Assembly (NCBI RefSeq): GCF_001441165.1
Contig: NZ_CP013126.1
Span: forward strand, 2,943,551-3,007,550
Direction: 5' to 3'
DNA: 64,000 nucleotides
Source of the DNA: Acidipropionibacterium acidipropionici
GTDB lineage: Bacteria; Actinomycetota; Actinomycetes; Propionibacteriales; Propionibacteriaceae
The notes beneath the pieces are model-generated. The model was not told the origin of the DNA. It did not search any database and saw only the letters and a program-made list of their open reading frames with translations. Each line of letters opens with the position of its first letter. Position 1 is the stretch's first letter. This document shows positions 3,543 through 8,427 of this stretch, piece by piece. The position numbers and the translations under genes are program-made.

Positions 3543-4607
3543 TCGTGCGCGCCGGGGGGCCTCGGGATCGGTGTCGGGCTCGCCATCGGGCTCCTCGGGC
3601 TCCTCATCGGAGTCCTCGCAGCGCTGGGCCCTCCGATCGGCCAGGGCCCGGTCCCAGTGCCCCTTGACCGTCCAGGCGTCCCCGCGTGCCAGCAGCGGGG
3701 CGTCGGCGTCATTCCACCGCAGGGCCACCGCCGGCTGGTCGGCGGTGGCGATCCAGGCCGCGACGAAGAGCACCATGCGGGCCAGCACGTTGAACACCAG
3801 CATCACGATGATGATCGATCCGAAGGCCTGGACGGTCCGGTTGGCGTTGAGGGCGCCCACCAGGAATCCGGCGACGGTCTGCAGCAGCGCCAGGCAGATC
3901 CCTGCCGCCACCGATCCGATGGCGATCGCCCGCCAATTGCGCCGGCCCCTCGGCAGGGCGGCGTAGAGGAAGAGGAAGAAGATCGAGCCGGCGAGGGTGG
4001 AGACCACCAGGGCGCCGACCCGGATGATGACGGCGTGGCCCGGCAGCAGGTTGATCCCGATCCGGCGGCCCACGGCGCTGGTGAGGGCGTTGCCGACCTG
4101 GGCTGTGCCGAAGGCCACCAGCAGCACCACCAGGAGGGCCAGGAAGGTCAGCGCGTCGAAGGCCTTGCGCATCAGCAGCCCGTCATCGTCGTCCTTGACC
4201 CGTCCGAAGGCCGGCTCCCACTGGGCGCGGATCCCCGAGCGCAGGTGCCCGACCCAGGAGATCCCGGTCCACAGGGCCGTCAGGACGGTGATGACCACCG
4301 TCCAGGCCGAGCCCGAGGTCCTCAGCGAAGCGTCGATGATATCGGCCACCTTGTCCCCTCCCCCGGCGACACCGAGGGCGGCGATGACCAGATCCTTGAG
4401 GCCGGCGAAGACGTCGGGAAGCACCCGGGTGAGGACCAGACTGAGGACCGCGAAGGCGAAGGCCAGCAGCGGCACCATCGCCAGCACCGTGAAGTAGGCG
4501 ATCGACGCGGCGAAATGGTTGCCGAGCCGACGGGAGTAGCGCGTCTGGGCGCGCATCAGGTGCGCGATGGCCGGCCTGGCCAGCAGTGCCTCGAGATGCG
4601 TCCTCAC
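3519..4607 (-). CDS. YihY/BrkB-family inner-membrane protein
   Basis: The 362-residue protein has six predicted hydrophobic segments, the first near residues 37-65 with the family-typical Y-F-x4-M-V-P-L-L-A-F-A. An N-terminal R-Y-S-R-R-L-G-N-H-F-A-A-S-I-A segment precedes it. The last 50 residues are acidic and Arg-rich (runs of E-D-S-D-E-E-P-E) and should be cytosolic. YihY/BrkB (UPF0761) proteins are widespread envelope proteins whose transport role is unsettled; the family was once wrongly called RNase BN. The start is a GTG with AAGGGGAC upstream. No partner gene suggests a specific function. Confidence 0.82.
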   Translation of the reverse strand: MRTHLEALLARPAIAHLMRAQTRYSRRLGNHFAASIAYFTVLAMVPLLAFAFAVLSLVLTRVLPDVFAGLKDLVIAALGVAGGGDKVADIIDASLRTSGSAWTVVITVLTALWTGISWVGHLRSGIRAQWEPAFGRVKDDDDGLLMRKAFDALTFLALLVVLLVAFGTAQVGNALTSAVGRRIGINLLPGHAVIIRVGALVVSTLAGSIFFLFLYAALPRGRRNWRAIAIGSVAAGICLALLQTVAGFLVGALNANRTVQAFGSIIIVMLVFNVLARMVLFVAAWIATADQPAVALRWNDADAPLLARGDAWTVKGHWDRALADRRAQRCEDSDEEPEEPDGEPDTDPEAPRRARRARHREE

Positions 4608-5924: not shown

Positions 5925-6608
5925 TCAGTGCTCCAGCAGGTCGTAGACCATGGCGGCATGGGCGTGCAGCACCAGCTGGGTCACCTGGGAGGCGATCTCG
6001 CCGGCCTGCTCACGGTGGCGCACATGGGGCAGCACGGTCTGCTCGATCATGCCCGCCTCCCGCTCTGCCGCCTGCCGCAGTGCCCGCAGATGGCGGGTGT
6101 CCATCCCGAAGGCCCGCAGCCGCCGGGAGGCCACGCACACCATGAGCGCCTCCTGGCCGTACCAGTCCTGGCCGCGCTTGGTGCGCACCAGCTGGTGGCG
6201 CTCCAGCTCCACCAGCTGGGCCTCGGTGATGCCGCTGGCGCGGATCAGCTCCCGCCTCTTCATCCTGATCGGGCCGCGGGGAGCGCCGATGCCGAGGTGC
6301 TCCTCCTCGCCGCCCGACGCACCGGGCGGGGCCGGCGGCTCGACGGCGGGCGGCTCCTCGCCGCGGTCGATCATCTCCAGATGCTCACGGATCACCTTGA
6401 GCGGCTGGAAGTTGTCACGCTGGCACGTCAGGATGTAGCGCAGCCGGTCGACATCGGCCCTGGAGTACTTGCGATACCCGGACGGAGCCCGTTCAGGGCT
6501 CAGCAGCCCCTCCGACTCCAGGAATCGGATCTTCGAGATGGAGAGGTCGGGGAAGTCCGGCTTGAGGAGCTTCATCACCTGCCCGATGCTCCGCACCGGC
6601 CCGGGCAT
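5925..6608 (-). CDS. ftsR: MerR-family regulator FtsR
   Basis: The 227-residue protein starts with S-I-G-Q-V, leading into a MerR helix-turn-helix: F-P-D-L-S-I-S-K-I-R-F-L-E-S-E-G-L-L, then the wing P-S-G-Y-R-K-Y. A Pro/Glu-rich linker (about residues 83-107) leads to a second conserved block, R-x-R-E-L-I-x-A-S-G-I, and an alpha-helical C-terminus. This architecture and the position next to garA match FtsR of Corynebacterium (Rv1828 in M. tuberculosis), which activates ftsZ. The start overlaps the garA stop as TGATG, so the two are translationally coupled. Control of division here is inferred from homology and synteny. Confidence 0.86.
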   Translation of the reverse strand: MPGPVRSIGQVMKLLKPDFPDLSISKIRFLESEGLLSPERAPSGYRKYSRADVDRLRYILTCQRDNFQPLKVIREHLEMIDRGEEPPAVEPPAPPGASGGEEEHLGIGAPRGPIRMKRRELIRASGITEAQLVELERHQLVRTKRGQDWYGQEALMVCVASRRLRAFGMDTRHLRALRQAAEREAGMIEQTVLPHVRHREQAGEIASQVTQLVLHAHAAMVYDLLEH

Positions 6609-7114
6609 CAGTGCAGTCCGCGCCCGCCGGTGTGGAAGGTCATCCGGAACTTGCCGATCTGGACCTCGTCGCCGTCGCGCAGCAGCGCCGAGCCGTCGAC
6701 CAGGGTGCGGTTGACGTAGGTGCCGTTGAGACTGCCCTGGTCCTCGACGTAGACGCGGCCGTCCTTGAGGATGAACTTGACGTGGTGGCGCGAGACGGTG
6801 ATGTCGTCGAGGAAGATGTCGGAGTGGGTGCTGCGGCCGGCGGTGGTGACCTCATGGTCCAGCAGGAACCGCGATCCCACATTGGGACCCCGCTGGACCA
6901 CCAGCAGAGCGGTGCCCTCGGGCAGCTCCTCGATCGCCGACAGGTCATCGCCCGACAGCTCGGGGGCGTCGGCGGCGACCTCCTCGGTCATCACCGGGAT
7001 CACCCCGGTGTTGTCGCCGGGGATGTCGGCGGCCGCTCCCAGCCGCGCCCCGCAGCGCGAGCAGAAATTGGCGTCGCCGGCATTGGCCTGCCCGCATCTC
7101 TGGCACTCGTTCAT
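6608..7114 (-). CDS. garA: FHA-domain regulator GarA with zinc ribbon
   Basis: The 168-residue protein has an N-terminal four-cysteine ribbon (C-Q-R-C-G and C-S-R-C-G) and a C-terminal FHA domain with the phosphothreonine-binding residues G-R-S-T-H, S-R-H-H and S-L-N-G-T-Y-V-N. GarA proteins bind and inhibit 2-oxoglutarate dehydrogenase and glutamate dehydrogenase, and are switched off when protein kinases phosphorylate an N-terminal threonine that then docks on their own FHA domain. A D-N-T-G-V segment ahead of the FHA domain (about residues 35-40) is the likely phosphosite region, though it differs from the classic E-T-T-x-V. The start at 7114 is preceded by GAGG; an ATG at 7138 lacks one. 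Confidence 0.88.
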   Translation of the reverse strand: MNECQRCGQANAGDANFCSRCGARLGAAADIPGDNTGVIPVMTEEVAADAPELSGDDLSAIEELPEGTALLVVQRGPNVGSRFLLDHEVTTAGRSTHSDIFLDDITVSRHHVKFILKDGRVYVEDQGSLNGTYVNRTLVDGSALLRDGDEVQIGKFRMTFHTGGRGLH

Positions 7115-7175
7115 CTCACCGTCCTCGCTCTCAATCATGTCCGGAAGTCCATCATGCCCACCCCCGGCAAGACAC

Positions 7176-7565
7176 TCATTCCTGCTCGTCCAGCGCGCTG
7201 TACGCGTCGACGTCGAGCAGGTCCTCCAGGTCGGTGGGATCGTCGATCTCCACGGCCACCAGCCAGCCGTCCCCGAAGGGGTCGGCGGCGATCTGGTCGG
7301 GGGCCTCGGCGGCCACCGCGTTGACGGCGACCACCTCCCCGCCGACCGGGGTCTCGATGTCGACCGACTCGTCGTCGGTCTCGATCTCCGCCAGCACGTC
7401 CCCGCGGCTCAGCACCGCACCCACATCGGGGAGGCTGATCCCGACAATGCCGCCGAACCGGGCCACGGCGGTCTCGGTGATCCCGATGCGCACCTCGTCC
7501 CCGTTTCCGGGACGGACCCACAGATGGTCCTCGGTGTACTGGAGATCCTCGGGCAGTTCTGCCAT
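7176..7565 (-). CDS. GcvH-like protein lacking the lipoyl-lysine
   Basis: The 129-residue protein aligns over its whole length with glycine-cleavage H protein: Y-T-E-D-H-L-W-V-R at the start, V-G-I-S-L-P-x-V-G-A, S-G-type hinge P-V-G-G-E-V-V-A-V-N, and the C-terminal P-F-G-D-G-W-L. In true GcvH a lysine in an E-S-T-K-S-V-type loop carries lipoate. Here the loop is E-T-D-D-E-S-V, with Asp65 at that position, and the protein has no lysine anywhere. It therefore cannot be lipoylated and should not carry the aminomethyl group. A structural or regulatory role alongside GarA is inferred from position. The start is set by AGGAGG 8 nt before the ATG. No gcvT or gcvP is nearby. Confidence 0.85.
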   Translation of the reverse strand: MAELPEDLQYTEDHLWVRPGNGDEVRIGITETAVARFGGIVGISLPDVGAVLSRGDVLAEIETDDESVDIETPVGGEVVAVNAVAAEAPDQIAADPFGDGWLVAVEIDDPTDLEDLLDVDAYSALDEQE

Positions 7566-7683
7566 GACGGGAGCCTCCTGGGGTGCCACGGTCCGCGGGG
7601 ACCTGGGATGGGTGCGCGGCTGACGCCGCGTCGGGTCCCACACTAGCGGTCCTGCGGCCCGGTGGGTGCGAGGTCGCGGCCGC

Positions 7684-8427
7684 TCACCTCACAGGTGTCG
7701 CATGACTGAGCGGCCGCGGGGTCGCGACGGCGTCGATGCGCACCTGCTGGGAGCGGGTGATCGTCACCGTGGCTCCGACCTGGGGGGCCTGCATCTGGGA
7801 GACCATGCCGCCGCGGAACATCGCCCCCTCCTCCAGGGAGTGGGGGTCGCCGATGGCGGTGATGGTGATCGGGCGGGAGACGGCCTTCCCGGAGACGGTG
7901 AGCCCGTCGGCGCGGGAGGCGAACCAGGTGCTCGCCACCACGCGGACCTTCCCGTTGATCGCCAGCGCCTCGGCGCCGGCGTCGCGCAGCTCCTCCACGG
8001 CGTCGAGGATCATGTCCGAGGAGACCTTCGAGTCCGGGTCCTCGATGCGGATCGTGACGCCCGGGCCGGCCACCGGGACGGTGCCCTCCAGCACCTTGAG
8101 CTGGGAGAGACGCCGGTCGGCCTGGGCCCGGGCCGCCCGCCGGGAGTCGGCCCCCGACTGCAGGTCCCGCTGGGTCTCGCGCAGGTCGGCCAGTTCGGAG
8201 TCGAGCTGACGCGAGGACGTCGACAGGGAGTCGAGCATGGACACCAGGTCGGCGCGTCGCATGGTGGCGAAGGGGTCCTCGTGGTCGCGGGAGCGCACCT
8301 GGGCGACGACGGCGAAGGCGCACAGGCACAGGATCACGGCGATGACGAGCTGGGCCCTGGACGGGCGGGCCGGCCGGCGGCGGGCGGCCGGCGGCAGGTC
8401 CTGGTCGGTGGTGTCGTCCTCAGGCAT
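7684..8427 (-). CDS. DUF881 membrane-anchored protein (first copy)
   Basis: The 247-residue protein has an N-terminal cytosolic basic segment, one membrane helix (A-Q-L-V-I-A-V-I-L-C-L-C-A-F-A-V, about residues 26-43), a coiled-coil stretch with L-x6-L heptads (about 65-115), and the DUF881 domain with G-P-G-V-T-I-R-I-E-D and A-L-A-I-N-G. The family is found beside the small basic protein Sbp in actinobacteria and firmicutes. Its role is unknown but linked by context to cell-envelope growth or division. The start overlaps the sbp stop by 8 nt, showing tight coupling. It is one of two DUF881 genes flanking sbp, an order shared with M. tuberculosis Rv1823-Rv1825. Confidence 0.83.
   Translation of the reverse strand: MPEDDTTDQDLPPAARRRPARPSRAQLVIAVILCLCAFAVVAQVRSRDHEDPFATMRRADLVSMLDSLSTSSRQLDSELADLRETQRDLQSGADSRRAARAQADRRLSQLKVLEGTVPVAGPGVTIRIEDPDSKVSSDMILDAVEELRDAGAEALAINGKVRVVASTWFASRADGLTVSGKAVSRPITITAIGDPHSLEEGAMFRGGMVSQMQAPQVGATVTITRSQQVRIDAVATPRPLSHATPVR

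Follow-up and report, generated by a model that had tools for sequence, protein, structure and literature searches.

The garA locus and its gcvH-like gene

The window analysed here is a 64,000-nucleotide stretch of the Acidipropionibacterium acidipropionici genome (contig NZ_CP013126.1, positions 2,943,551 to 3,007,550). Its minus strand carries a gene for a GcvH-like protein, placed between a DUF881 gene and a homologue of garA/odhI, with an ftsR homologue beyond (Table 1). The gap between the gcvH-like gene and garA is 37 nt, and an alternative start at Met9 is possible for garA. The GarA homologue has a zinc-ribbon-like N-terminus (CxxC...CxxC), which is also found in 14 other GarA matches examined in the family. 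Upstream of the gcvH-like gene, the six bases of the putative -10-like box are identical in two of the five genus members and in genome G054, and the other three members differ by one base. Excerpts of PMC6683498 describe odhI/garA-ftsR-nuclease-merR as a conserved core and the region upstream of odhI as variable; its main text mentions neither gcvH nor glycine cleavage.

Table 1. Features of the garA locus, with positions counted from the first base of the window
Feature	Position	Strand	Basis
gcvH-like gene linked to garA, 129 aa, Asp65 in place of the lipoyl-lysine	7176..7565	-	translation, Pfam, phmmer, Foldseek
GAC codon of Asp65 (lipoyl-lysine position)	7371..7373	-	sequence; aligned to E. 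coli Lys65
Leu15 codon, where the HEW motif has a conserved Glu	7521..7523	-	alignment
N-terminal beta hairpin, residues 15-29, GNGD turn	7479..7523	-	conserved stretch in Lys-less copies and AlphaFold2 model
AGGAGG, ribosome-binding site of the ATG	7574..7579	-	found in all five genus members
TAGTGT, putative -10-like box, 75 nt 5' of the ATG	7640..7645	-	comparison with relatives
garA/odhI homologue, zinc-ribbon-like N-terminus and FHA domain, next gene downstream	6608..7138	-	
ftsR homologue (MerR type)	5925..6608	-	named from gene order, as in excerpts of PMC6683498
DUF881 gene (putative), upstream neighbour	7684..8427	-	name from the earlier note

An H protein without its lipoyl-lysine

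Translation of the frame gives 129 amino acids and a stop, with no lysine. The protein matches the Pfam family GCV_H (PF01597) at 91.7 bits, where the cut-off is 22.2, and the match covers residues 8-125; phmmer aligns it end to end and without gaps to the E. coli H protein (3a8i_E), placing Asp65 opposite the E. coli Lys65. An AlphaFold2 model built on an eight-sequence alignment had a mean pLDDT of 88.2, and when Foldseek was given this predicted model, solved H proteins ranked first (best TM-score 0.91-0.93). The NCBIfam models draw a finer line: the protein fails TIGR00527, the GcvH equivalog (97.6 against a cut-off of 115.85), just passes the broader NF002270 (118.3 against 117), and with 66.1 bits does not reach the equivalog cut-off of TIGR03077, not_gcvH (144.05). 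The lipoyl-lysine that marks a working H protein is absent from the loop, and the sequence holds neither lysine nor cysteine anywhere. Judged by its sequence, the protein cannot serve as a lipoyl carrier. The earlier note had described an H-protein fold along the whole length, aspartate at the lipoyl position, no lysine in 129 residues and hence no carrier function, and on each of these points the analysis agrees with it.

Two further readings of the missing lysine were rejected. The first was that the total absence of lysine is itself a meaningful trait. It is weak evidence, because garA-linked copies which keep the lipoyl-lysine are lysine-poor and a single loss can therefore give zero: the lipoyl-lysine is the sole lysine in 16 of the 62 Lys-bearing garA-linked copies in the family, and in 29 of 103 overall. 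The second, that aspartate mimics the modified lysine, is unlikely, as the site reads D, E, D, A and D in the genus and S (three times), A (twice), D, V and G in its sister genus.

A separate, normal gcvH

The host genome contains two GCV_H matches, so the garA-linked copy (91.1 bits) is not its sole gcvH, a possibility which was considered and discarded. The other match, at G000:C1:3287020-3287364 (130.5 bits), is the second, normal gcvH that the earlier note had suggested looking for: its loop reads EVEST[K]SVSD, with a normal lipoyl-lysine, and it lies in the order gcvT-gcvH-gcvP. A lipA match is also present. The garA-linked copy is not beside the host's gcvT or gcvP, and the glycine cleavage genes are present without it, in the normal gcvT-gcvH-gcvP cluster elsewhere.

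Distribution of the loss

Among the five genomes searched in the genus (the host included, one genome 86% complete), all five have a garA-linked copy without the lipoyl-lysine, and all five have a normal gcvT-linked gcvH. A local mutation can therefore be rejected. Across the family, 197 genomes were searched and 159 had a match to the window protein. We examined 79 garA-linked copies from 78 genomes (G160 has two), not counting L082, an Acidipropionibacterium MAG which is the same record as G002 with an identical H-like protein. The lysine is present in 62 copies and absent in 17, namely the five of the genus, eight of the sister genus (g13, so called from the GarA+FtsR tree described below), G027, G052, G080 and G056. 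These 17 Lys-less copies all adjoin garA and ftsR, with DUF881 on the other side in 15, the exceptions being G052 and G080. Outside the family, 56 regions from 47 genomes were read (leaving out a 51-bit fragment in G228), and the lipoyl-lysine is kept in all 41 copies that are garA-linked. The earlier note had proposed scoring this position in relatives at the same locus, and the outcome is mixed: the loss is shared throughout the genus, but most relatives keep the lysine (62/79 in the family, 41/41 outside it). On the sequences sampled, the loss is therefore lineage-specific and does not characterise the garA locus as such.

All 17 Lys-less copies seem unneeded as carriers, because 14 of their genomes have a normal gcvT-linked gcvH (among them all eight of the sister genus in which the locus copy persists) and the other three, G052, G080 and G056, gave no gcvP match. 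In these three there was likewise no second GCV_H match other than a 22-bit partial one in G080, and no lipA match in G052 or G056 (the latter 90% complete). By comparison, gcvP is present in all five genus and nine sister-genus genomes searched.

Some listed family members have gcvH, garA and gcvP within a few kilobases, G067 and G039 among them; in G067, gcvH lies at 1105522, garA at 1106053 and gcvP at 1108712. From this proximity of gcvP to the locus, we infer that the garA-locus copy is the ancestral metabolic gcvH.

The locus can also be found without gcvH. In G110 (L166), one of nine g13 genomes, garA follows DUF881 by about 90 nt with no gcvH match between them, so whatever role the locus copy plays is dispensable there. 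Thirteen of the 20 family garA loci that we fetched had no gcvH match (these loci were picked via garA, mostly for having no nearby gcvH, so this is not a frequency), and ftsR was beside garA in all 13, one of which belongs to the sister genus. The garA-ftsR pair can thus persist without this protein.

Two other variants were seen at or near these genes. G085 (L177) has a garA-linked gcvH with the lysine, its loop followed by a few additional residues; its window-protein match reported an internal stop, and the genome gave no gcvP match. The gcvT-linked H proteins of g28 (L075, L076 and L077) have a divergent loop, AIDST[K]AASG, and the garA loci of two of these genomes (L169 and L167) have no gcvH.

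The arm cavity and an intermediate state

According to excerpts of PMC7733448, simulations indicate that Glu-14 and Ser-67 of the E. coli H protein hold or gate the aminomethyl-lipoate arm, and for Ser-67 there are also mutants. By our reading of the alignment, these correspond to sites 15 and 68 of the window protein, a shift by one. There, the HEW motif has become HLW (Leu15) and the serine has become Val68, so both cavity residues are lost; an acid is retained at the E. coli Glu-12 site as Asp13, and the full E. coli set of Glu-12, Glu-14 and Ser-67 is not present. The same division runs through the relatives. Of the 133 Lys-bearing copies, 129 have Glu15, and all 14 Lys-less copies of the genus, the sister genus and G027 have Leu, Val or Ile. 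Ser68 is found in 123 of the 133, and the 14 have Val or Trp (the G027 entry in this column is uncertain owing to a loop insertion). A buried acid that no longer meets a cargo would be expected to give way to a greasy residue.

The group g22 may illustrate a state between the two. All four genomes read have a garA-linked copy which keeps the lysine and has Leu for the HEW glutamate, and these four copies are the sole exceptions at that site among the 133. Each of these genomes has a second match to the window protein, gcvT-linked in G025. Two further sequences with Leu here are those of G056 and L088 of Nocardia thailandica (4001-4363). The latter is a GcvH-like gene on a long branch, with the HLW motif, Ala at the lipoyl site and no lysine, and no garA or gcvT match was found in its 8 kb locus.

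How many losses

Of 175 GcvH sequences, 17 were dropped to leave a 158-row tree: ten duplicates of the same gene, L183 (G164), regarded as a near-duplicate of L058, and six distant GcvH-like rows (L089, L110 twice, L111, L113 twice). A second tree was built from GarA+FtsR. In the latter, the genus and g13 form one clade (100*), for which a single loss and subsequent long retention would be the simplest reading. Separate from this clade are G027, the g27 pair and G056, and g22 also falls elsewhere. In the GcvH tree, G027 joins the genus and the sister genus (93), and g22 is next to them (89).

A single origin of all the losses was considered and set aside: the GcvH tree brings lineages together, but the GarA+FtsR tree separates G027 and g22. 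Topology tests on GarA+FtsR (71 rows, with seven long ones left out) did not reject grouping these lineages with the clade (p-AU 0.122 for G027, 0.145 for g22 and 0.081 for both). When trait columns were removed from the GcvH data, holding G027 with the clade scored better (p-AU 0.738). Since the two datasets reject neither arrangement, we count three or four losses.

The normal copies of both genera belong to a part of the GcvH tree with 27 rows, 26 of them gcvT-linked (support 90, not starred). Because they fall among almost purely gcvT-linked GcvH, this suggests a separate origin for the gcvT-linked cluster.

Selection on the Lys-less copies

The Lys-less copies of the genus and its sister genus are under purifying selection. 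Omega is approximately 0.07 for the five genus copies, 0.14 for the eight of g13 and 0.12 for these 13 with G027, and fixing omega at 1 (on a fixed tree with a grid of kappa) costs 266, 216 and 509 in 2dlnL, respectively. The normal gcvH copies of the genus and g13 give 0.09 and 0.05, and the four g22 copies give 0.06. The nearest pair, G000 and G004, has an NG86 omega of 0.24 and differs at 11, 8 and 36% of first, second and third codon positions; more distant pairs are near saturation in NG86. Some Lys-less copies look relaxed: NG86 omega is 0.48 for G052 and G080, the latter with a diverged C-terminus, and 0.59 for Lys-bearing G039 against Lys-less G056. The four g27 copies together (two with the lysine, two without) give 0.08.

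Between the two Lys-less genera, identity is 8.5% in the loop (residues 60-69), 20% in residues 31-44, 64% in residues 5-30 and 62% in residues 95-122. For the 62 Lys-bearing copies of the family, the corresponding values are 83, 63, 63 and 62%. Constraint is gone from the lipoyl loop and retained on residues 5-30 and 95-122. Examples of residues fixed in all 14 Lys-less copies of the genus, g13 and G027 (more exist) are Pro5, Trp16, Arg18, Gly20, Asn21, Arg26, Gly28 and Thr30 in the N-terminal part, and Asp56, Asp95, Gly98, Asp99, Gly100, Trp101, Leu102, Pro110 and Tyr122 later on. Pro5, Arg18 and Arg26 occur in 98, 76 and 94% of Lys-bearing garA-linked copies, and Arg18 and Arg26 each occur in one of 30 gcvT-linked copies. 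This mark of garA-linked copies may reflect ancestry alone.

Purifying selection makes a role other than that of carrier likely for this protein. Selection has preserved much of it after the loss of the residue that carries the cargo, which points to a second, lipoyl-independent job for the Lys-less H protein.

What the protein may do

The reading that we consider probable is that an ancestral garA-locus gcvH, relieved of glycine cleavage, has been kept as a non-lipoylated binding protein. The separate gcvT-gcvH-gcvP cluster would have relieved the locus copy of its carrier job. The copy has lost the lipoyl-lysine, the cavity glutamate (HEW to HLW) and the cavity serine, but its predicted fold is intact and purifying selection holds its N-terminal stretch and C-terminal part. 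Such a pseudo-carrier would bind a partner via a face made up of residues of about 5-30 and 95-122, and the binding role may predate the loss of the lysine, having existed alongside the carrier role. Candidate partners are GarA, a 2-oxoacid dehydrogenase-type enzyme controlled by GarA homologues, or another protein of the locus.

A more specific proposal, which we regard as unlikely, gives the protein a place in carbon/nitrogen signalling, where it would act as partner or adapter to GarA or to the enzyme that GarA targets. Position favours it, with a gcvH copy beside garA and ftsR in 17/17 Lys-less genomes, DUF881 opposite in 15/17 and only the short gap to garA in the window, as does an open frame of 1257 aa in the host genome that contains a 2-oxoacid dehydrogenase E2 domain. 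We take this to be the size of the OdhA/Kgd-type enzyme bound by GarA homologues. However, the gene order is explicable by ancestry, given how close gcvH, garA and gcvP lie in G067 and G039, and the 13 family loci with garA and ftsR (picked via garA) do without gcvH. The earlier note had suggested a signalling or scaffold partner of GarA rather than a metabolic enzyme; purifying selection without the lysine speaks for a non-carrier role, but the GarA partnership is unsupported.

It is very unlikely that the protein is a regulator or decoy of glycine cleavage, i.e., an armless carrier that binds GcvP or GcvT. The kept fold and the presence of gcvP in the genus and sister genus would suit such a role, but constraint has been lost in the lipoyl loop and residues 31-44, and Lys-less copies also occur in the three genomes with no gcvP match. 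Least credible is a relic, retained by accident or for the benefit that its reading frame brings to garA expression. In favour of this, the gene comes first behind a promoter-like box with garA nearby, gcvH is missing here in other lineages and the end of the G080 copy has diverged. Against it stand omega values of 0.07-0.14 and the strong rejection of omega = 1, constraint limited to certain stretches as would be expected of a binding face, and a G110 garA that follows DUF881 with no gcvH-like gene.

Relationship to known proteins and significance

The closest known protein is GcvH itself (PF01597; E. coli 3a8i_E), which the window protein resembles in its ungapped full-length alignment, its TM-score of 0.93 and its place at the locus where relatives have a Lys-bearing gcvH. 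It differs in having no lipoyl-lysine, Glu-14 or Ser-67, and in scoring below the TIGR00527 cut-off. GcvH-L of Streptococcus pyogenes (5a35) is a weaker structural match to the model (TM-score 0.76); it is also GcvH-like and outside the usual cluster, but with its lipoyl-lysine kept and another gene neighbourhood. The description of TIGR03077 is that of a protein resembling glycine cleavage protein H, but the window protein stays below its cut-off. LbpA, a lipoate-binding protein of sulfur oxidation, is a GcvH-like protein with a job outside glycine cleavage. In excerpts of PMC6067878, however, 95 aligned LbpA share a strictly conserved lipoyl-lysine and, some archaeal ones excepted, two conserved cysteines, and the window protein has neither. 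In L110 (G201) and L113 (G219), from other families, a tandem pair of GcvH-like genes, whose loop reads ES[GA]KWVG, lies apart from the garA-linked gcvH of the same genomes; these may be LbpA-like. Among the PMC papers listed in our searches, we saw no account of an H protein at the garA locus that lacks the lipoyl-lysine.

This case carries a warning for annotation, as the gene passes family searches as GcvH yet cannot be a working component of glycine cleavage. When an H protein is conserved, the usual conclusion is that its function as a lipoyl carrier is conserved too. In this case neither the attachment site nor the arm cavity survives, and yet part of the protein remains under selection. 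The Lys-less copy therefore offers a handle on a lipoyl-independent GcvH role in a conserved actinobacterial gene cluster. A broader conjecture, which we think quite improbable, is that the garA-locus GcvH of Actinomycetes has two jobs, as a carrier and as a lipoyl-independent partner of GarA/FtsR in carbon-nitrogen control and division, and that Acidipropionibacterium and its sister genus split them. If this were true, these two genera would leave the second job open to study alone.
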